In this document: positions 13,933 through 23,669 of the stretch, in pieces | How positions within the stretch are numbered: position 1 is the first letter of the stretch | How the letters are laid out: each line of letters starts with the position of its first letter | Assembly (NCBI GenBank): GCA_030620115.1 | Contig: JAUXFG010000048.1 | Location: 1-24,362 of the forward strand | Source of the DNA: Candidatus Fermentibacterota bacterium | GTDB taxonomy: Bacteria; JAFGKV01 | Reading direction: 5' to 3' | Length of the DNA: 24,362 bases | Position numbers and translations under genes: made by a program | Notes under the pieces: model-generated | What the model was told of the DNA's origin: nothing | What the model saw: only the letters and a program-made list of their open reading frames with translations | The model's database searches: none

Positions 13933-13951
13933 GCATATGGAAAGAACATAT

Positions 13952-14341
13952 GGTGAGAAATGCGGGTCAGCCCGGACTTCTCACCGGCTTTCGAAGCGAA
14001 ACGGCCGAGATGGTTCTGAATGTTAGCTCGGACTTCTCGCCGGCTTCCGTAGCGAGACAGAAGAGATGGTTGTGGCTGCAAGGCTTGCGACCGAGGCTTC
14101 CGCAGGCGTATCCTCTGCGATACGTCGAGGAAGCCGACAGAGCGTAACGCAGCAGACAGAGCCATATCGGATGTCGCAGCCGAAAGCTGATGAGAAGTTC
14201 GGGCTCGGCTTGCGAACGAGGACGCCGCAGGCGTATCCTCTCCGATACGCCGAGGAGGCCGACGGAGCGTAACGAAGTCCCGCGTCGGATGCGGGATGCC
14301 ATATCGTCGGTTGTAGCCGAAAGCTGGTGAGAAATGCGGGC
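13952..14341. repeat. Compound palindromic repeat with GTGAGAAATGCGGGC ends and duplicated internal units
   Basis: GGTGAGAAATGCGGG occurs at both ends (13952 and 14326). The left part holds two 56-bp direct units (13970-14025 and about 14026-14080) containing GGACTTCTCACCGGCTTTCG or variants. The right part holds two direct units of about 125-135 bp (14082-14206 and 14207-14341). Each right-hand unit has GGCTTGCGA, a small palindrome CGTATC-N6-GATACG, GTCGAGGA or CCGAGGAG, and a closing CGAAAGCTG(G/A)TGAGAA. The left CTTCTCACCGGCTTTCG is the inverse of the closing motif, so the whole block has inverted ends. A short relative is at 22245-22306. Frames through the block give repetitive, implausible proteins. 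Confidence 0.8.
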
Positions 14342-14388
14342 TTAGACTGCAAGTTGTTCGAGTCGTACTGTTCCGCAGGAGGTGATTT

Positions 14389-17300
14389 GTGTTCAGGCGC
14401 TCTCGAACAGAGGTCTCCAGTCCGGTTGACCTGGCAACTGTTGGACCTCCCTCCATTGCCATATCCGGGCATGAAGGCACGCATACGGTAACGCCTGCCC
14501 TCCTTGACAAAGAAGAAGTCCGGACCGCCATTGGGCGGATTGAAGAGAGAGAGCCTGCGCTCGCAGATATTTTGCGCGGACGCCTGGCCGAGACACTGCG
14601 TATCCGGAAACTTCTCCGCCGGCATGCCGATACCTTGGCTCAAATCGTCGGCGGCGAGAATCTCTCTTGTGTCTTCGCCCTGAGAGAGGGCTTTTCCACG
14701 GATTCCACCGGCCGCCGCGGGTTCATCACCGAGGCCGTGGTTTCGCCTCCCCGCGTGGATTCATTGCGACAATTCATGTGCTGGTGCTTCCGACACCGCG
14801 TGCCGATCATTCCCTATGGTGCAGGTGGGGGCTACAACATGGGCGTGGTGCCCATGGCTCCGGCCGTGACCCTGTGGACCGGTGCGCTGAGAAAACTGTG
14901 GGAGCCAATACCTCATCCCCACCCCCATGGAAGAGCGCGACGAGCGGTATGGGCAGAGGCCGGTGTTCCTTATGGAGAGCTCGTGGATTCGATCTCGAAA
15001 CTCGGCATGGTGGTACGCTGTGCCCCCAACACACCGCGCGCCTCCGTAGGCGGTGTGGTGGCCACAGGAAGCAACGGCGGCAAACGCATTGCAGACATCC
15101 TGTTGGCCGGAGAAGCGGTGCTTCCCGACGGTCGCCTTGTCGAATTCGAAACCAGCGAACAGGAACGCCATTGCCTCGCTGAGCAACCCTTCCCGTTGCT
15201 TCATAAATTCTCCGGTGTGTCCCGCACGCAACTGAAAGAACTCAAGGTTCTGCTCGAATCCGGAGGCATCCTGCCTGCAAGCCTCTTTGTGGCGGCAGAA
15301 GGCACTACGGGCGTGATCACGCGTGTCCTGTTAGAGGTGGAGGATCAACCGGGATTGGGTCTTTCCGTCGGGATCTGGCTTCCATCACTCGAGCAGGTGC
15401 CGCCGTTGGCCATGCACGTACACAAGCTCCCCGAGGCTCTAAGACCCGTCTACTTCGAGCTCCTGACCGACCCGGCCATCAGCCATTACCTTGCGCCTGA
15501 GTACCCCGACCTATTCGAAGGAAATGAACCGGCCTATGTCATCGCCACATTCGAGGCCGATACCGCGACGGAGCTTGCGAGTGCACGCCGCGCCATTGAG
15601 TCGTTCTTGCACGAACAGGTGCGGACCGTTTGGGTCGGCCCCTATCCCACCAGCGAGGTGCCGCCTGAGGCATCGAGATTGAAGGAGCCCCGAGAAGCAC
15701 TTCCCACCAAGCTCACCACAAAATGCAAGGCCGACATCGAAATCCGATTGGAGGCACTGCCATCCGCCATCCGGCTCCTCTCGGAGAAATCAACACCTAA
15801 GAACGAACGATTCGAATCCATCCTCTTCGGCCACCTCTCCCTCCGGGACTCGGCCGTAATCCACTGGAATATCGGTGGCGTCGATCTCGCGGTGGAAGAA
15901 CAGGCAGAACAAGCATGGGGACATCTCGAGAAGATGTTGAAGGAGCTCATGAAACCCGACGCCACCGGGACACGACATGCAGCCTTCACCGGAGAGCATG
16001 GCGCCGCAGGCAAACCCCTTCTCTTCCGGTTATTCCTCTCCCGGCCCGAGCTCGCCCGCATGCACCGGATCAAACGCCTCCTTGATCCCCGAAGACTAAT
16101 CAATCCATACACGCTCTTCCTGCCGACCCGGCTTTCGAGAAGCCTGGCCGCCCGTACTCTGGCGCTTCCCAAGTCCAAGGGGAAGGCCAACCGTGGAGCC
16201 GCAGAGCTCGTGCAGCTTTGTACTCGCTGCAATGCGTGCCAGAACTGCCTGGTACTTGACAGCCAAGCTTTGCTGAGAACATCCAGAAAACCTCGCGCCA
16301 ATGGGGAATGGATCCTCGGCAAGCGCCATATTGTGCTCCTTCTCGAGCTCCTGATGAGCTCGGAGATCTCGAGGGGAGCCCAAAAAAGGCTGCTCGAAGA
16401 ATCGGTACCCATGCTCCGGCAATGCATCTCATGCGGTCGATGTGATGACGTTTGCCCCGCGGACATCCAGCTTTCCGATCTCAAGGCCGAGCTCTGGAAG
16501 CTCTTGGGTAGAGAGCCGGCGCTTCCTATTCGATCTCGATTCCTCTATCGTTTCTTGTTGGCGCCAGCGCCACGTTTCTTGCCTATGGTGTTCCAGGGTT
16601 TCCTCACCCGATTTACCAACCCGCTCGCACGCTTCCTACAGGTTCGGAAACCTTCGTGGGGATCGCTGTGGGCCTATGCCGCCATGCCCCCCATGGAAGG
16701 AAGGCGATACACAGCGCCCAAAACAGCCACGATCCGCAACATAGGTGATGACCTGGCTCTCCACGGATCATCCTTCATCGATGCCGACCATAACCCCCTG
16801 GCCGTTCGCTTCCGGGGGTGCGTGGGAACCATGGGAAGGACGCAGGCGACTCGGAACGAGGATCGTTTCTTTTTCGAACGAGCCGGCATACCATTTCTTG
16901 ATTTTGTGCCCGACCTCTGCTGCGGTTACCCCTATCAGGCTGCAGGTGCATATGACGAAGCCCGATCCCGAAGAGACAAGCTCATCCATCACCTCGCCGG
17001 GGCGATTGCCACGGCGAAAAGACTCCTGGGAGATCGGGAGTTTGTGCTGATTTCGAGCTGTCCTACGTGTCAGGAGTCGCTCCGAAAAGGCCTGAAGGAG
17101 AACCCGGATATAGAGAGGAGTCTTTCTGTAGCCGACCCAGCCGAGTTCCTCCTGCCATTCTTGCCCAATATGGTCGCACAGAGCGAAGATCCACGAATCA
17201 GGATAGGGCTCAAGATTCCTTGTCACGCAACACCTGAGGCCACGGAAGCCCAGCTTCGGCTCCTCAAGCGACATGGCGTCGATGTGGTTGAGTTCGACCA

Positions 17301-17526
17301 ATGCTGCGGCATGGCTGGTACGGGTCGCATCATGCATCCTGAAATCGGGCATCTCTTGGCGACCAAGCTGGCCAAGGAAATCATAGAAGAACGAGTATCC
17401 CTCATTGTCTCGGGATGCCCTTCCTGCAGGGACGGAGTCCTCCTCCAGAGCACGCTCACAGGAACGGAGTTGACCGTGACCGACCTGTTTGGTTTTCTCC
17501 TCTCGTTGGAGAACACACATGACTGA
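14389..17526 (+). CDS. FAD-linked oxidoreductase fused to ferredoxin and CCG (HdrB-like) domains
   Basis: The product is 1045 aa from GTG 14389, with AGGAGGTGA at 14377-14385. Domains: an N-terminal helical region, FAD-binding type 4 (about 100-290, with IPYGAGGGYNMG near 143 and SVGGVVATGSNGG near 218), an FAD-oxidase C-terminal-type region (about 300-590), ferredoxin-like clusters, and two CCG modules. Cysteines C611, C614, C617 and C620 form a CxxCxxCxxC set lacking the usual CxxxCP ending. C679, C682, C685 and C689 form a canonical 4Fe-4S motif. CCG modules have C844-C845-G with C891/C894, and C972-C973-G with C1010/C1013. This resembles the fused D-2-hydroxyacid (D-lactate, glycolate, 2-hydroxyglutarate) dehydrogenases such as YdiJ. 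The substrate is not shown. It overlaps the DUF1460 gene by 8 bases, heading an operon. Confidence 0.88.
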   Translation: MFRRSRTEVSSPVDLATVGPPSIAISGHEGTHTVTPALLDKEEVRTAIGRIEEREPALADILRGRLAETLRIRKLLRRHADTLAQIVGGENLSCVFALREGFSTDSTGRRGFITEAVVSPPRVDSLRQFMCWCFRHRVPIIPYGAGGGYNMGVVPMAPAVTLWTGALRKLWEPIPHPHPHGRARRAVWAEAGVPYGELVDSISKLGMVVRCAPNTPRASVGGVVATGSNGGKRIADILLAGEAVLPDGRLVEFETSEQERHCLAEQPFPLLHKFSGVSRTQLKELKVLLESGGILPASLFVAAEGTTGVITRVLLEVEDQPGLGLSVGIWLPSLEQVPPLAMHVHKLPEALRPVYFELLTDPAISHYLAPEYPDLFEGNEPAYVIATFEADTATELASARRAIESFLHEQVRTVWVGPYPTSEVPPEASRLKEPREALPTKLTTKCKADIEIRLEALPSAIRLLSEKSTPKNERFESILFGHLSLRDSAVIHWNIGGVDLAVEEQAEQAWGHLEKMLKELMKPDATGTRHAAFTGEHGAAGKPLLFRLFLSRPELARMHRIKRLLDPRRLINPYTLFLPTRLSRSLAARTLALPKSKGKANRGAAELVQLCTRCNACQNCLVLDSQALLRTSRKPRANGEWILGKRHIVLLLELLMSSEISRGAQKRLLEESVPMLRQCISCGRCDDVCPADIQLSDLKAELWKLLGREPALPIRSRFLYRFLLAPAPRFLPMVFQGFLTRFTNPLARFLQVRKPSWGSLWAYAAMPPMEGRRYTAPKTATIRNIGDDLALHGSSFIDADHNPLAVRFRGCVGTMGRTQATRNEDRFFFERAGIPFLDFVPDLCCGYPYQAAGAYDEARSRRDKLIHHLAGAIATAKRLLGDREFVLISSCPTCQESLRKGLKENPDIERSLSVADPAEFLLPFLPNMVAQSEDPRIRIGLKIPCHATPEATEAQLRLLKRHGVDVVEFDQCCGMAGTGRIMHPEIGHLLATKLAKEIIEERVSLIVSGCPSCRDGVLLQSTLTGTELTVTDLFGFLLSLENTHD

Positions 17527-18175
17527 AGCACAAATCATCCTCCGGAAGATCGCGCATCTGGTTGATCCCGACCAACGCCTGCAGGAAGCGGCAATGCTCC
17601 TCCTCGGCAAGCCATACGGTGATCGCCCTTTAGCTGGAGGACCAGGACTACCGGAATCGCCAGCCATCCGGCTCGATTGTATGGACTGTATGACTTATCT
17701 GGAGACGGCTGTGGGATTCGGTTTATCCTCCGGCCTGGAGGAGCTGCGACGGACCATCATCCGACTCAGATACTCATCACCCACACTCCAATGGGACACC
17801 CGCCTCCACTACTTCTTCTCCTGGCTTCGGGTAAACCAAGACCGAGGTCTTATGGAGATCATAACCCCTGCGGAGGACTCGACCGTGACGGTGAAGACGT
17901 TATCATTTGTGCCCGGCATCCCTACCCAGGAAGTGAGCTTCCGTGCCCATGCATGGCACATGGAAGCCATACCACCCCATGCCACCATGATCGGCTTTGT
18001 ATCGGAGAGAAACGATCTTGACGTGTTCCACGTCGGCATCCTTTGCAGCGGAGGCACGACATTGCTGCACGCATCACGCAGAGAAGGATGTGTGATCAAG
18101 GAGCCGCTCCAGGCTTTTCTTGATCGCGAAACAGGTCTCGGGCTTCTCCTCGCGCATCTCATGACCAGAGGGTGA
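17519..18175 (+). CDS. DUF1460 / AmiF-type amidase-like protein (NlpC/P60-related)
   Basis: The product is 218 aa from ATG 17519, which overlaps the previous gene's end by 8 bases; GGAGA lies 8 bases before. Residues RLDCMDCMTYLETAVGFGL carry the DCxT(Y/F)(V/L)E motif of DUF1460, with C57 the expected nucleophile. IRLRYSSPTLQWDTRLHYFF and SWLRVN match the following conserved helix, and DVFHVGI (H171) with LLHASR (H184) would supply the histidines. Family members cleave between sugar and peptide or within stem peptides of peptidoglycan fragments. No signal peptide or lipobox is seen, unlike many family members, so a cytoplasmic muropeptide-processing role is inferred. The stop overlaps the region holding the GT2 gene's Shine-Dalgarno, indicating coupled expression. 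Confidence 0.82.
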   Translation: MTEAQIILRKIAHLVDPDQRLQEAAMLLLGKPYGDRPLAGGPGLPESPAIRLDCMDCMTYLETAVGFGLSSGLEELRRTIIRLRYSSPTLQWDTRLHYFFSWLRVNQDRGLMEIITPAEDSTVTVKTLSFVPGIPTQEVSFRAHAWHMEAIPPHATMIGFVSERNDLDVFHVGILCSGGTTLLHASRREGCVIKEPLQAFLDRETGLGLLLAHLMTRG

Positions 18176-18180
18176 TCACC

Positions 18181-19554
18181 ATGGCGAGACAATATCTGTG
18201 GCTCAACAAGGAAGTCTCATTAAAAGGGGACCAGCTCATCCGAGGAGCCGGATTGGAAGTGATGGAATACGACAAAACCTTGAGCGCCAGAGAGAATCTC
18301 CAGAAGGCGCTCTTTGCCCGCGAAAGTGGTCGCATGGGCCTTGTCTGGGGCCCCGGTCGCGTATCGCTTGGCCAGAATGGCCTGCAACGCCTTCTCGCGA
18401 TTGCTCAAGATGCACAGGCCACCCTGGCCTATGGAGACTATCGAGGGCCTCGTGGCGATGTACCACTGGACGATCTTCTGCCCGGAAGTCTTGATGATAA
18501 GACAGATCTGGGACCACTCTGGGTTGTGGACGCTGCGGCGGCACGAGCTTCACTGCATGAAATCCCCGCGCACGTGTCCTCAATGGAGGCCCTGGCCTAC
18601 GGCCTCCGCCTTGGGCTCATGAGGCGTGGGATTTCATTCCATCTCCCCGAAATCCAATGCGCTATATCTCAGGCCCCAACGGACGACATATTTTCTTATG
18701 TACGCCAGGGCGCTGAGATCATTCAGGGTGAGCTGGAAGAGGTATTCACCGACCACCTTCGACGAATCAACGTTTATCTGGAACCGCGCACAGAGCCATT
18801 TAAAGATGAGGGCTCCTATCCGATTGACGCCTCAGTAGTCATTCCGGTCAAGGATCGCGCGCAGACCATTGCCGATGCCGTGGCCAGTGCACTCTCGCAA
18901 ATCACGAATTTCACTTTCAATGTCATCGTGGTGGAGAATCACTCGTCGGATGACACGGGAGTGACTGCACTGAAAGCGGGCCGGCACGACAAAAGATTTC
19001 ACCTGATCACCCCAAAACGTACCGATCTGGGCATCGGCGGCTGCTGGAACTTGGCCGCCTTCTCGCCGTGGGCGGGGGGCTTTCTCGTGCAGCTGGATTC
19101 GGATGACGTCTATGCGGACCCGGAATCACTACATCGACTTGTCGAGACCGCAAAGGCTGGGCCGTGGGCCATGGTGGTGGGGAGCTACACCACGGTGAAC
19201 ATGGAGGGAATACCGACGCCTCCAGGCGATGTGCAACATCTGGAATGGACCGAGGCAAACGGCCACAACAACCTGCTTCGCGTTGCAGGGGTTGGGGCGC
19301 CGCGTCTTATTGCCACAGGCTTCATCCGGCAATTCCCTATGCCCAACGTGAGCTACGGAGAGGATTATGCAATTGCCTTGGCCATATCCCGACGGTACCG
19401 GGTAGCTCGAGTGCACGATATTCTCTATCTTGCCCGGCGATGGGAGGGAAATACCGACTACCGGGTCTCTCCCGCACTATCCAGGGCCAGAGGACGCTAT
19501 AAGAATCACCTGCGAACAGCCGAGATTCTTGCACGCCAGGTCTTGAACACATGA
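18181..19554 (+). CDS. Two-module family 2 glycosyltransferase
   Basis: The product is 457 aa from ATG 18181, with AGAGGGTGA just upstream; GTG 18172 is a possible alternative. The C-terminal GT-A domain (about residue 215 on) starts DASVVIPVKDRAQTIADAVA, has VVENHSSDDTG, LGIGGCWN and the metal-binding QLDSDDVYAD (D306, D308, D309), then YGEDYAIAL and RRWEGNTDY. The N-terminal 200 residues (including LAYGDYRG and LLPGSLDDKTDLGPLWVV) resemble a degenerate second GT-A module, a layout I recall from Bacteroidota proteins that sit beside DUF4922 genes. It has no membrane segment. It should transfer a sugar from a nucleotide donor; the acceptor is unknown. Its stop overlaps the DUF4922 gene's ATG by 4 bases. 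Confidence 0.88.
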   Translation: MARQYLWLNKEVSLKGDQLIRGAGLEVMEYDKTLSARENLQKALFARESGRMGLVWGPGRVSLGQNGLQRLLAIAQDAQATLAYGDYRGPRGDVPLDDLLPGSLDDKTDLGPLWVVDAAAARASLHEIPAHVSSMEALAYGLRLGLMRRGISFHLPEIQCAISQAPTDDIFSYVRQGAEIIQGELEEVFTDHLRRINVYLEPRTEPFKDEGSYPIDASVVIPVKDRAQTIADAVASALSQITNFTFNVIVVENHSSDDTGVTALKAGRHDKRFHLITPKRTDLGIGGCWNLAAFSPWAGGFLVQLDSDDVYADPESLHRLVETAKAGPWAMVVGSYTTVNMEGIPTPPGDVQHLEWTEANGHNNLLRVAGVGAPRLIATGFIRQFPMPNVSYGEDYAIALAISRRYRVARVHDILYLARRWEGNTDYRVSPALSRARGRYKNHLRTAEILARQVLNT

Positions 19555-20540
19555 CCACGTGGGAAAATCATCTCATCACGACCGAAGCCTTGGGCCATTC
19601 GTGGGATGATGGCCTTGGCCCCATAACCAGAACTCTGATCACGCAACAGAGACACAAGTGGCCTCGCCTGGCGCATGGGTTGACCAACCTGGAGAGCGCT
19701 CGGCAAAAACAACTCACCGACCCACGGAACCAGAAGGTCTTGGTCGATCTCATCCAGATCTCAGGAAGATACGACAATGCCGCCGCCATGCTGGACCCGC
19801 ATGGTTTCTGCCCGCTCTGCATCGAGAATCTCCCCTCTGAGGAGCAAGGGATAGCCTTTGAGGAGCGCCTCGCTGTTTTCCCGAACCCTAATCCAATCCT
19901 CACCAACCATCTTGTCGGCGTGCACAAAGATCATGTTCCCCAAGAATTGAGGTCGTGCCTCCCACATATGGCCGATCTCCTGAAGTGGCTTCGCGAGGAT
20001 ATGATGGTGCTCTACAATGGGCCCACTTGCGGCGCCTCATCGCCCTTTCATCTCCATATCCAGATGGGAGCAAGGGAAGAGCTGCCGCTCCTGGAACAGA
20101 TCCAAAGCATGGAGCCCGAACTCTCTCTCGGTGATTCCGGAGAGCATATCTATGCCCTCCAATCTTTTGGGCGCAGGTTCTTCTTAATCAGCACTGGAAA
20201 ACCAATACAATTGAGCCCGATTATTGCCGAACTCATGGATATGTTGGATCCAGGCGAGGAAGCGCCTGTCAACCTTGTGCTTTGGCGAGACAAGAGCACC
20301 AATCTCGCCACGCTTTTTCCACGTGGTCGACATCGGCCGTCGTGCTTCTACCTGCCTGAGCCCCAGAGACTCGTGGTGAGCCCCGGTTCAGTGGAGATGG
20401 CGGGTCTCGTGGTGGTGCCGAGAGCAGAAGATTTTGAGCGCATCGACGCCTCCATCATGGAGACGATCTACCGGGAAGTATCGCTCCCCGATGAGGCATG
20501 GCACATGTTGCTCACCAGAGTTGAGGCAAGATTTGGCTAG
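19551..20540 (+). CDS. DUF4922 HIT-like sugar-nucleotide phosphorylase/nucleotidyltransferase
   Basis: The product is 329 aa. The ATG overlaps the GT2 stop (ATGA). The core has FCPLCIENLP (C87, C90), then VFPNPNPILTNHLVGVHKDH and YNGPTCGASSPFHLHIQ, giving HxHxQ at H167, H169 and Q171. This is the HIT/GalT-superfamily active-site pattern in which the middle histidine becomes nucleotidylated. Relatives include ApaH-type Ap4A phosphorylases and GDP-L-galactose phosphorylase. DUF4922 proteins of this kind occur in Bacteroidota, usually without assigned function. The HIT motif and the adjacent glycosyltransferase suggest it makes or recovers a nucleotide-sugar or sugar phosphate used by its neighbours; that is inference. 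There is no signal peptide. It is the last gene of the overlapping set. Confidence 0.8.
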   Translation: MTTWENHLITTEALGHSWDDGLGPITRTLITQQRHKWPRLAHGLTNLESARQKQLTDPRNQKVLVDLIQISGRYDNAAAMLDPHGFCPLCIENLPSEEQGIAFEERLAVFPNPNPILTNHLVGVHKDHVPQELRSCLPHMADLLKWLREDMMVLYNGPTCGASSPFHLHIQMGAREELPLLEQIQSMEPELSLGDSGEHIYALQSFGRRFFLISTGKPIQLSPIIAELMDMLDPGEEAPVNLVLWRDKSTNLATLFPRGRHRPSCFYLPEPQRLVVSPGSVEMAGLVVVPRAEDFERIDASIMETIYREVSLPDEAWHMLLTRVEARFG

Positions 20541-20572
20541 CCCCAGTATTGCACACTCAGCTGTAGACCATC

Positions 20573-20619
20573 GCAGAATGGGCGACAGATTTCGTCTCGA
20601 GCTTTGTCGCCCATTCTGC
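20573..20619. repeat. Strong inverted repeat after the DUF4922 gene
   Basis: GCAGAATGGGCGACA (20573-20587) and its exact reverse complement TGTCGCCCATTCTGC (20605-20619) flank a 17-nt loop. The hairpin starts 33 bases after the stop codon. It lacks a following U-run, so it is either a factor-assisted transcript end, an RNA-stability element or a protein-binding site. Confidence 0.8.
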
Positions 20620-20646
20620 CGTTCACCGAGCGATTTGTGCTGCACG

Positions 20647-20684
20647 AAACTAATTAAGTTCCTGCGCAGGAACTTAATTAGTTT
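20647..20684. repeat. Perfect 38-bp palindrome with no loop
   Basis: AAACTAATTAAGTTCCTGC (20647-20665) is directly followed by its exact reverse complement (20666-20684). It is AT-rich at the outside and GC-rich at the centre. The symmetry and position, 56 bp before the SpoIID gene, suit an operator for a dimeric regulator. An RNA stem or a repeat element is also possible. Confidence 0.85.
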
Positions 20685-20740
20685 TGCATGGCTCTGCCGA
20701 CGCAGATTGGAGTCCGAAGCCAGGGCGCGCGTTTTGACAG

Positions 20741-22150
20741 GTGCTCTTCGACGAGACTCGGGACAGAGACCTCCAACTGATGTTTGTGCACTCCTTGAGC
20801 AGTATCTTGGTTAACCCGCATAGCAAGGACTCCGAGCCGGTTCTGCGCATCGGGCTCGTAAGTGATGTGCCCCAGCAACACCTTGTTTTCTCTTCTCAAT
20901 TCCGTGTCCATGAGCGAACGCTTCCGGCTGGCCCCTGTGTGGCCCTTGGCAACGGGCCTGTCGTGGAACTGCGAGGAACGGACTGGTCCGTCAAACTTCC
21001 GGATGGCGCCGTGCTCTCTCCTGTTGAAACGGGAGCCTCTTTCACCATCACGGATATGCCCGTGGGCACCGGCTTTCACTGGCAGCAGAAAGAAGATCTG
21101 ATCTATAACGGAGAGCTGGAGTTTAGCATGACGTCGGCAGGCATGCTGACCGTGATCAATCGTATTGGTTTGGAACAGTATCTGGAGAGCGTCATCTCCT
21201 CGGAGATGAATCCGCTTGCGCCGTCGGAATTCCTGAAAGCACACGCGGTTGTAGCCAGAAGCTGGGTGCTGGCTCAATTGGCACGAGATCATCTTGCCCC
21301 ACATGAGCAGAAACCCCCTGGAGTCGACATATGGGAGTGGCAGGATCGTGAGGATCATGCGCTGTTCGATCTCTGCGCTGACGATCATTGTCAACGATAT
21401 CATGGACTCACCCGGCGGATCTCCCAAGCAGCACGCGATGCAGTGAAAACCACGCGAGGCATCGTGCTCTGGGCAGAGGAACACGTGGTTGATGCACGCT
21501 TCTCCAAATGCTGCGGAGGGCTCTCAGAAGAGTACCACACCGCCTGGGGAGGTTCAGCACCGCCGGGGCTTGTGAGCATCATTGACGCCCAGGCTCCTCC
21601 TCAGGGCTTCGCGCTTCCTCTTGACTCCGAGGAGAAGGCAGCTAAGTGGATCAAAGGCAATCCGGACGTATTCTGCCGCGTGGATGATCCGGCCCTGTGG
21701 CGAGCGCTGAGCCTTCCCATGGACCGGGATACAACCAATTTTTTCAGGTGGACTATTCGCTACACCCAAGAGGAATTGGCCGCCATGGTGGAGCACCGCA
21801 CTGGAGCGGGCCTCGGCCAGATCCTTCGCCTGACACCTCTGAAACGTGGCCCATCCGGCCGCATGTGGCTTCTGGAGATCAAAGGCCAACATGGAAACCT
21901 TACTATAGGCAAGGAACTCTGCATTCGCCGAGTTCTTTCCGATTCCCACCTCAAGAGCTCCGCCTTCGTGGTGGAGCATAGAGAGCTCCATCGCGATGTG
22001 CCAGGCGGGGTGATACTCCATGGTGCCGGCTGGGGCCACGGTGTGGGCATGTGCCAGATAGGCGCAGGCTCAATGGCGGCTCAAGGCTCTCCGTGGCGGG
22101 CGATCCTGACCCATTATTTCCCCTCTTGCGAACTGCGAACGCTGTTCTGA
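20741..22150 (+). CDS. SpoIID/LytB-domain protein (lytic transglycosylase / amidase enhancer type)
   Basis: The product is 469 aa from GTG 20741, or 456 aa from ATG 20780; neither start has a clear Shine-Dalgarno. The SpoIID domain carries LEQYLESVISSEMNPLAPSE (E155 from the GTG aligns with the catalytic Glu of SpoIID), KAHAVVARSWVLAQL, SKCCGGLSEEYHTAWGG, and the C-terminal GAGWGHGVGMCQIGAGSMA with YFPSCELR. Known members are SpoIID, which cleaves denuded glycan strands, and LytB, an amidase enhancer. No signal peptide or membrane anchor is visible at either start, which is unusual for a cell-wall enzyme. It follows the DUF4922 gene by 200 bp with two palindromes between. It probably belongs to the same pathway while being separately controlled. 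Confidence 0.87.
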   Translation: MLFDETRDRDLQLMFVHSLSSILVNPHSKDSEPVLRIGLVSDVPQQHLVFSSQFRVHERTLPAGPCVALGNGPVVELRGTDWSVKLPDGAVLSPVETGASFTITDMPVGTGFHWQQKEDLIYNGELEFSMTSAGMLTVINRIGLEQYLESVISSEMNPLAPSEFLKAHAVVARSWVLAQLARDHLAPHEQKPPGVDIWEWQDREDHALFDLCADDHCQRYHGLTRRISQAARDAVKTTRGIVLWAEEHVVDARFSKCCGGLSEEYHTAWGGSAPPGLVSIIDAQAPPQGFALPLDSEEKAAKWIKGNPDVFCRVDDPALWRALSLPMDRDTTNFFRWTIRYTQEELAAMVEHRTGAGLGQILRLTPLKRGPSGRMWLLEIKGQHGNLTIGKELCIRRVLSDSHLKSSAFVVEHRELHRDVPGGVILHGAGWGHGVGMCQIGAGSMAAQGSPWRAILTHYFPSCELRTLF

Positions 22151-22244: not shown

Positions 22245-22306
22245 GCCCGCATTTCTCACCGGCCAACTACACCGCTTCGCGACGAAAGCCCGTGAGAAAT
22301 GTGGGC
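22245..22306. repeat. Short palindrome related to the 13952-14341 repeat
   Basis: GCCCGCATTTCTCACCGG (22245-22262) and CCCGTGAGAAATGTGGGC (22289-22306) are inverted arms differing at two positions, with a 26-nt loop. The arms match the end motifs of the larger compound repeat at 13952-14341. This looks like a minimal member of that family without the internal units. Confidence 0.8.
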
Positions 22307-22511: not shown

Positions 22512-23669
22512 CTAGCGAAGGATCACTCGGAGGGTTGCGTCGCCATGCGATGTCGCAGCACGCAACATGTACGTCCCCGGAGCCACATCGCCACGCTCCC
22601 AATTAAACGTATGCGTGCCGGCATCCGCGCTGCCCTCCCAGATCGTGGAGACCGCGTGTCCCTGAAGGTCATACACAGAGAGAGAGACCATCCCTTCAGC
22701 GGGGAGGCTCAGCTCGATAGATGTGGCGTCGTCCACAGGGACTGGAGATGCGCCAAGAAGCACTGCCTCCGGCATGGCCGCGGGTATGGCGACACTCACC
22801 GGTCCGAACATCTCGGTTGTCCCCTGGAAGTCCACCTGCTCCAGCCAGTAGCGGTAGGTCAGCCCTGCCGCAATGTCTCGGTCCACATAGGAGTAGAACA
22901 TCGGTTCGAGCGTCGTGCCTGCGCCGGGTACCATGGAGACATTGATTGCCGACCGTTGACCCATCCCCATCGCTCTCAGGATATTGAAACCGAGATTGTC
23001 CTGCTCAGAAGCCGTGCTCCAGGTCAGCTCCACCTCCTCGGGCGTCGCGGAAGCAGCGAATGTGCACAGCTCCACCGGCACGTCGCCGGCTGCGTTGTGG
23101 ATGATGGCTGTGCTCGAACTTGTCCAAATATAGGCCTCATCGACGTAGAGAAGACTGTCGTTGGATCCGGCTGAGCCGCTGTAGATACGAGCTTCGACGA
23201 CAAAACCGTCGTTGGTAAACGGATCGGGTATTTTCCACCCATATGAGAGCTGCTCCCAGCCAATGCCCGATGTGTACGTGCTATTTCCTCCAGCGCTTCC
23301 GCCGTACGATGTAACATCGCTCGGATCAGTGGTGTAGTGAGCCCAAATGCGACCGCGGGGGTAGTAATCCGGATCGGGTGTATCGTCATACATGTAGAAG
23401 CTGGCAAAGATGCTATCGTTCGCGGCGCACCCCGTCACCCACCAAACATACGCCTGCGGCGTGCCGCTGATGGGATCTTCCCAGTACTTCAGGGAGCGAG
23501 TTCCCGAGGAAGCCCTATCGCCGGAGTTCGCGACATTCGCGTTTCCGTACGTACCGAGCACGGTCGCGACCCCGTCCTCCCAGTCGAAGGTCATGCTTTG
23601 CTGGGCGACTACGGGAAAGGAGAGAATAAGCAGAATGGTGGTAGATGCGAGAGCTACACGCTTGATCAT
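22512..23669 (-). CDS. Secreted beta-sandwich protein with FlgD/type-IX-like C-terminal sorting-type domain
   Basis: The product is 385 aa. Residues 1-22 are a signal peptide (MIKRVALASTTILLILSF, cleavage near VVAQQ). Residues about 25-190 form a beta-rich, probably jellyroll, module (SGTRSLKYWED, IWAHYTTDPSD, SLLYVDEAYIW). Residues 195-300 are the fibronectin-like segment common before sorting domains (VELTWSTASEQDNLGFNILR, YRYWLEQVD). The final 75 residues follow the FlgD-Ig/T9SS type A pattern: SPVP, then VSLSVYDLQGHAVSTIW, HTFNWERGDVAPGTYMLRA and a basic terminus VILR. In Bacteroidota this domain directs export and surface attachment; whether that machinery exists here is not visible. GGGGGAACC just before ATG is the Shine-Dalgarno. 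No catalytic residues are recognised. Confidence 0.85.
   Translation of the reverse strand: MIKRVALASTTILLILSFPVVAQQSMTFDWEDGVATVLGTYGNANVANSGDRASSGTRSLKYWEDPISGTPQAYVWWVTGCAANDSIFASFYMYDDTPDPDYYPRGRIWAHYTTDPSDVTSYGGSAGGNSTYTSGIGWEQLSYGWKIPDPFTNDGFVVEARIYSGSAGSNDSLLYVDEAYIWTSSSTAIIHNAAGDVPVELCTFAASATPEEVELTWSTASEQDNLGFNILRAMGMGQRSAINVSMVPGAGTTLEPMFYSYVDRDIAAGLTYRYWLEQVDFQGTTEMFGPVSVAIPAAMPEAVLLGASPVPVDDATSIELSLPAEGMVSLSVYDLQGHAVSTIWEGSADAGTHTFNWERGDVAPGTYMLRAATSHGDATLRVILR

Follow-up and report, generated by a model that had tools for sequence, protein, structure and literature searches.

A GT2, DUF4922 and SpoIID gene set with a probable role in peptidoglycan-fragment salvage in a Candidatus Fermentibacterota genome

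Genes of the locus and their predicted products

Here, we analysed a stretch of 24,362 nucleotides (the window; positions 1 to 24,362 of contig JAUXFG010000048.1, assembly GCA_030620115.1) from a Candidatus Fermentibacterota bacterium, whose genome is designated G000 (4.1 Mb, 98% complete). The window carries a cassette of five genes at positions 14389-22150, three of which encode a family 2 glycosyltransferase (GT2), a DUF4922 protein and a SpoIID protein that remain joined or fused in distant bacteria. It is likely that these three enzymes form one functional unit with a salvage role, and the process that they serve is very probably the salvage of peptidoglycan fragments in the cytosol. The assignment to this pathway is well supported, whereas the chemistry of the individual steps is what we infer.

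All five open reading frames (ORFs) lie on the forward (+) strand and are uninterrupted in the window sequence. The first (14389..17526, 1045 aa) starts with GTG, with AGGAGGTG just upstream, and encodes an oxidoreductase of the FAD/Fe-S D-2-hydroxyacid dehydrogenase type, containing FAD_binding_4 (8e-14), FAD-oxidase_C (3e-8) and CCG (9e-13) domains as well as 4Fe-4S motifs. Its closest solved structures by sequence are D-lactate dehydrogenase 8jdb and LctD 7qh2. It is followed by a DUF1460/AmiA-like amidase of the NlpC/P60 type (17519..18175, 218 aa), a GT2 with two GT-A modules (18172..19554, 460 aa; Glycos_transf_2, PF00535, 7e-16), a DUF4922 protein of the HIT superfamily (19551..20540, 329 aa; PF16269, 2e-25), which is the only DUF4922 gene in G000, and a SpoIID/LytB protein of the lytic-transglycosylase type (20741..22150, up to 469 aa). 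The last matches PF08486 (2e-22; 80 bits vs a cut-off of 23) and TIGR02669 (2e-42; 146 vs 83); its ORF runs from a GTG at 20741, with the ATG at 20780 as a possible alternative start. Neighbouring genes among the first four share 8, 4 and 4 bases, and a gap of 200 bases precedes SpoIID. The original prediction, made from the letters of the window, had described overlaps of 4-8 bases and a SpoIID gene about 200 bp further on; the ORF coordinates agree with this layout, and the domain-model matches agree with its five family calls.

SpoIID and DUF1460 proteins are extracytoplasmic as a rule. The window SpoIID, judged by its sequence, departs from this location, which is the usual one for SpoIID/LytB lytic transglycosylases. 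Hydropathy analysis detected no signal peptide or membrane segment in the cassette proteins, including the fused forms described below, and the window SpoIID lacks an N-terminal hydrophobic segment; a borderline N-terminal hydrophobic window was present in one of 30 stand-alone SpoIIDs and in none of 41 triple fusions. Since the protein either starts with MKEPEINVGIV... or follows the GT2 and HIT domains in the same chain, it is best taken as cytosolic, and the cassette SpoIID probably works in that compartment. Cytosolic action, which the original prediction had missed, is the most informative feature of the cassette.

The putative active site of this protein appears intact. Residues E155, H206, C212, H216 and C217 (numbered from the GTG at 20741) are invariant in 18 sequences (alignment A7), and the SpoIID of Clostridioides difficile has a catalytic E101 together with H134, C140, H145 and C146, and acts on glycan from which an amidase has already stripped the peptides (PMC6221140). 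The cassette enzyme thus resembles the C. difficile and Chlamydia proteins in the catalytic Glu, in the H/C/H/C metal site and in a presumed peptide-free substrate left by an amidase. It differs from them in its predicted cytosolic location and, in the fusions, in being joined to GT2 and DUF4922.

The DUF1460 family includes AmiA of Bacteroides uniformis, reportedly described by Xu in 2014, which shares with the window protein a Cys-His-His triad; the window copy, by contrast, is divergent and without a signal peptide. The match of the latter to PF07313 is clear (4e-23; 82.5 bits vs a cut-off of 27), and C57, H171 and H184, a triad of the type given in PMC10318531, are kept in three genomes. 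With its triad intact, the window DUF1460 would be a fitting amidase partner for a SpoIID that acts on amidase-stripped glycan.

A sequence search of the PDB with DUF4922 returned only spurious beta-propeller designs and chance matches and was thus uninformative, so that a fold search was needed. The predicted model (predicted local distance difference test score, pLDDT, 94) is closest to the yeast Ap4A phosphorylase Apa2 (Z 21.1, root-mean-square deviation (rmsd) 3.4, 265 aligned residues), and ADP-glucose phosphorylase and GalT follow at Z 8-9. This modelled fold supports the earlier view that DUF4922 is a HIT/phosphorylase-type enzyme. A CxxC motif (87, 90), H128 and HxHxQ (H167-x-H169-x-Q171) are invariant in 39 sequences (alignment A5). 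DUF4922 therefore shares the fold and the HxHxQ nucleophile motif with Apa2 and with plant ADP-glucose and GDP-galactose phosphorylases, but differs from them in its invariant CxxC and in its fusion to GT2.

The two GT-A modules of the GT2 (model pLDDT 89) differ in their motifs: the N-terminal one has no conserved DxD, whereas the C-terminal one keeps DSDD (309-312) and GED (396-398), both invariant in 20 sequences (alignment A6). The protein is thus predicted to consist of one dead and one live module. The C-terminal module resembles heparosan synthase (Z 23.1, rmsd 2.7, 219 aligned residues) and also matches the N-acetylglucosamine (GlcNAc) transferases TarS and TarP. The whole protein resembles chondroitin polymerase, on which the match of the N-terminal module mainly rests; the overall rmsd of this comparison is large, probably owing to a different domain arrangement in the model.

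Conservation and genomic context

Among the 60 nearest genomes, a close cassette was found only in two genomes of the window's own family, whose contigs are publicly labelled Candidatus Fermentibacteria and Candidatus Eisenbacteria. In both of these metagenome-assembled genomes (MAGs) the order oxidoreductase-DUF1460-GT2-DUF4922-SpoIID is kept at 42-57% identity, which indicates that the arrangement is more than chance.

To cover a wider range of organisms, a DUF4922 alignment was scanned against 84,980 species genomes, and 80 loci were obtained. Most belong to Prevotellaceae/Bacteroidaceae; others were found in Ignavibacteria, Prolixibacteraceae, Syntrophaceae and other Deltaproteobacteria. 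GT2, DUF4922 and SpoIID form a single polypeptide in 41 of the 80 loci, most of about 1200-1330 aa; 18 further loci have a GT2-DUF4922 fusion with SpoIID adjoining, and in seven the three genes are separate neighbours. Outside the window's family only these three stay joined or fused. The oxidoreductase does not accompany them; it adjoins DUF1460 in L010 and L011 and is the sole part of the cassette restricted to the window's clade.

Of 198 Bacteroidota genomes, 28 have a strong match to DUF4922, and precisely these 28, and no others, also have a strong match to the cassette-type SpoIID (p = 1e-34, a value that overstates independence as the sampled genomes are related), and in several of them, such as G160, G156 and G141, the two genes sit on separate contigs. 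Such a pattern is close to the strongest signal obtainable for a functional unit. The original prediction had stated that relatives of the three genes adjoin in Bacteroidota, and the fusions and this joint presence agree with it; the neighbourhood search that it had proposed reveals conserved co-occurrence far past close relatives, contrary to the outcome that it had named as refuting. As a separate observation, the reading frames of GT2 and DUF4922 are disrupted by frameshifts or stop codons at one locus from another group (L009, 7932-10374, genome G056), whose genome also has broken copies of AmpG and SpoIID at other positions; this looks like decay of the whole module, unless a poor assembly is the cause.

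The genes next to the cassette point to muropeptide metabolism. A major facilitator superfamily permease of the AmpG family lies beside it in 41 loci (TIGR00901, 8e-50; solved AmpG structures, 1e-13). One Syntrophaceae locus (L116) has the order SpoIID, AmpG, MurU, AmgK, leuS, a small lipoprotein gene, a GT2/DUF4922 fusion, an M15 peptidase and, on the opposite strand, DUF1460, and a deltaproteobacterial locus (L117) has SpoIID, AmpG and a MurU-like gene. In L118 a DUF4922/SpoIID fusion is accompanied by DUF1460, AmpG and NamZ, and genes resembling AmgK and MurU lie in the vicinity. In L023 genes that read as MurQ-like and MurK-like adjoin the cassette. In L024, a gene for a 1010-aa protein is followed by GT2, DUF4922, SpoIID, AmpG and NamZ.

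Two further neighbours recur. In two Syntrophaceae loci (L017 and L018) an M15 peptidase comes right after GT2-DUF4922, followed in L018 by DUF1460; this peptidase is perhaps a peptide-trimming partner. Some 20 Bacteroidota loci (L040, L053-L061, L065-L066, L071, L073-L074, L082, L085 and L088) encode, adjacent to the fused gene or close to it, a protein of approximately 320-360 aa with the look of an ATP-grasp enzyme (weak Asp-Met ligase match). It has no Pfam family and is possibly a peptide or muropeptide ligase.

Part of this arrangement is known from Tannerella forsythia, in which Tanf_08345-08385 encode a xanthan lyase, two glycosyltransferases, lytB, ampG and ybbC, followed by murTKQ, as a muropeptide operon that forms a single transcript under GppX control (PMC5388701). 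AmpG of this organism imports GlcNAc-anhydro-N-acetylmuramic acid (GlcNAc-anhydroMurNAc) and GlcNAc-MurNAc and is required for growth on peptidoglycan fragments, and how AmpG-imported fragments are processed in Bacteroidota such as Prevotella and Tannerella is a stated open question (PMC7670621). The gene order matches that of L024 (GT2, DUF4922, SpoIID, AmpG, NamZ), ybbC being of the NamZ family, and this correspondence gives the link to muropeptide salvage an experimental footing in a relative. In our reading of the gene order, Tanf_08355 would be the DUF4922 gene. On the other hand, the T. forsythia operon has AmpG, NamZ and murTKQ where the window has DUF1460 and the oxidoreductase.

A literature search, whose coverage left out most subscription journals, returned nothing on DUF4922 apart from plant GDP-galactose phosphorylase, found Tanf_08355 named only in PMC5388701, and yielded a single Chlamydia paper for SpoIID, AmpG and Bacteroides together. 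GT2, DUF4922 and SpoIID have no functional assignment in the literature found. The earlier description of the cassette as undescribed calls for caution, since the order of the genes was already present in the T. forsythia operon.

We also examined the standard recycling enzymes. AnmK (PF03702) was found in none of 35 cassette genomes, including that of the window. Among Bacteroidota it occurs in nine of 28 cassette genomes vs 126 of 170 others (Fisher p 3e-5, which ignores phylogeny); a strict rule of either AnmK or cassette is ruled out by these nine. MurQ (E < 1e-60) was detected in 10 and NagZ-like proteins (E <= 1e-30) in 13 of the 35 genomes, the latter in none of the eight with a triple fusion, and AmpG is present in 29, DUF1460 in 28 and AmgK-like genes in 24. 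Thirteen genomes have AmpG and lack AnmK, MurQ and NagZ; 11 of the 13 carry an AmgK-like gene. Two named isolates, Hoylesella marshii (G075) and Marseilla massiliensis (G085), are among these thirteen, so the missing enzymes cannot be put down to incomplete MAGs alone. AmgK needs GlcNAc-anhydroMurNAc to be split and opened first, and the cassette is therefore the obvious candidate for these steps in such cells. Since the cassette is mostly found where standard recycling enzymes are missing, its three core enzymes may be a replacement route.

Proposed salvage route and alternatives

In the proposed route, the imported substrate would be GlcNAc-1,6-anhydroMurNAc, with or without peptide, which would be processed in the cytosol after DUF1460 has stripped the stem peptide. 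SpoIID, whose active site would be shaped for the anhydroMurNAc product of lytic transglycosylases, would use water to open the ring in the reverse of the product-forming step, and AnmK would thereby become dispensable; we regard this ring opening as possible, though somewhat less likely than not. GT2 and DUF4922 would be a pair acting on a shared nucleotide sugar. GT2, running in reverse, would convert GlcNAc-anhydroMurNAc and uridine diphosphate (UDP) into UDP-GlcNAc and anhydroMurNAc, and DUF4922, as an enzyme of the Ap4A/ADP-glucose-phosphorylase type, would convert UDP-GlcNAc and phosphate into GlcNAc-1-phosphate and UDP, so that NagZ would not be needed. This direction of the pair is doubtful. 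MurNAc would then pass to AmgK/MurU, or to MurK/MurQ, where these are present, and in the window's clade the added oxidoreductase would oxidise a D-2-hydroxyacid. In the most complete version, one GT2-DUF4922-SpoIID polypeptide would transfer the GlcNAc of AmpG-imported GlcNAc-anhydroMurNAc to UDP, release GlcNAc-1-phosphate and open the anhydro sugar, replacing NagZ and AnmK and saving ATP; that the whole sequence holds is slightly more doubtful still.

The AmpG-bearing cassette genomes would share their imported substrates with the Escherichia coli AmpG-NagZ-AmpD-AnmK-MurQ pathway, and DUF1460 would replace AmpD. They differ from it in lacking AnmK and often NagZ or MurQ, and E. coli recycling has no counterpart of SpoIID, GT2 or DUF4922. 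Anabolic recycling by AmgK and MurU, known from Pseudomonas and Caulobacter (PMC13046382), is also similar in that homologues of both enzymes lie beside the cassette at two loci (L116 and L118), but the known route depends on upstream NagZ and AnmK.

Several observations weigh against the proposed route. UDP would have to take up GlcNAc out of a beta-1,4 glycoside, an energetically uphill transfer unless it is channelled into phosphorolysis, which would bring the sum near neutral. Fusion of GT2 and DUF4922 would aid such channelling; in six of the 80 loci, one of them at a contig end, GT2 is not beside DUF4922 (the rest of these genomes was not searched for it). Replacement of AnmK is not exclusive, given the nine Bacteroidota genomes that carry it together with the cassette, and the patterns of both AnmK and NagZ are confounded by phylogeny. 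In the window genome and its two relatives (G000, G001 and G002) we found no AmpG (TIGR00901), no AnmK and no MurQ (TIGR00274) beyond weak partial matches; for AmgK the window genome gave one weak match (E 1.6e-9) and for NagZ one GH3 match (1e-34) below the curated cut-off. Import in this organism might proceed via another transporter, by analogy with YejBEF-YepA of Alphaproteobacteria (PMC9790009).

The alternative that survives best keeps the pathway and runs the chemistry forward: DUF4922 would make or exchange a nucleotide sugar in the manner of GalT, GT2 would re-glycosylate the salvaged sugar, and the product would be the substrate of SpoIID, working as a transglycosylase or a muramidase. 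We consider it possible but unlikely, and about equal to the reverse scheme. The HxHxQ motif and the CxxC...H...H pattern also suit nucleotidyl transfer of the GalT type, with GalT structures at Z about 8, the structural matches of GT2 are forward-acting N-acetylhexosamine transferases, and adjoining AmgK and MurU provide sugar-1-phosphates. However, the Apa2-type fold is much closer than GalT (Z 21), and forward chemistry alone leaves unexplained how GlcNAc-anhydroMurNAc is split and opened in AmpG-bearing genomes that lack NagZ and AnmK.

A catabolic version in the window, in which MurNAc is degraded and the FAD/Fe-S enzyme oxidises the resulting lactate, is unlikely. The original prediction had included such a branch, and the D-2-hydroxyacid dehydrogenase architecture, the D-lactate dehydrogenase as closest solved structure, the 8-base overlap with DUF1460 and the order shared by three genomes fit it. 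The idea is nevertheless weak because neither the window genome nor the two related ones carry MurQ, and the oxidoreductase is missing from every other cassette seen; MurNAc lactate in the window organism would be possible only with an unrecognised etherase. Thus, the original prediction is supported in part: the co-occurrence and the AmpG, AmgK, MurU, NamZ and MurQ neighbours support salvage of cell-wall fragments, and the lactate branch is not supported.

A cassette for glycan or glycoprotein synthesis, with SpoIID trimming the product, is improbable. The GT2 is a real GT-A enzyme of the inverting type, and the T. forsythia cluster was labelled glycosylation-related in earlier work quoted by PMC5388701, but the neighbours are DUF1460 and genes of muropeptide metabolism rather than of lipid carriers or polymer export, the SpoIID family is one of peptidoglycan enzymes, and membrane segments are missing from the cassette proteins. 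It is highly improbable that SpoIID and the amidase are a conventional extracytoplasmic set of murein hydrolases beside unrelated genes, although this would suit the usual location of both families (PMC6221140): the cassette SpoIIDs have no signal peptide, co-occur perfectly with DUF4922 and, in 41 loci, come after GT2 and DUF4922 in one chain.

Returning to cytosolic salvage, this analysis names for fragment processing three co-travelling enzymes, one with a lytic-transglycosylase-type domain that lacks an export signal, in genomes most of which lack AnmK and many of which lack NagZ. The triple-fusion form is found in many gut and rumen bacteria. If the route is true, a phosphate-driven recycling branch would influence how gut and oral bacteria retain or release immune-active muropeptides.

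Repeats and flanking sequence

The gap between DUF4922 and SpoIID contains two inverted repeats (20573..20684, no strand assigned), one with 22-bp arms (20573-20619) and one a perfect 38-bp palindrome (20647-20684). In both relatives the DUF4922 and SpoIID ORFs overlap, unlike the gapped version of the window, so the repeats may have been inserted or may serve in regulation. A local promoter scan gave no outstanding sigma-70 candidate at the locus. Intergenic repeats with copies of 71, 53 and 45 nt lie upstream of the cassette (13951-14342), and downstream of SpoIID (22245-22306) a similar TGAGAAATGCGGGC-type motif occurs as an inverted repeat, possibly a repetitive extragenic palindromic (REP)-like element that flanks the operon.

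A second, divergent SpoIID gene is present elsewhere in the window genome (contig C131:4456-5253, in a 557-aa frame) and has a counterpart in G001. Behind the cassette, relatives of the gene at 22512-23669 (- strand; QQSMTFDWEDG) follow directly in both sister genomes (L014 and L015), and synteny thus extends beyond the operon.

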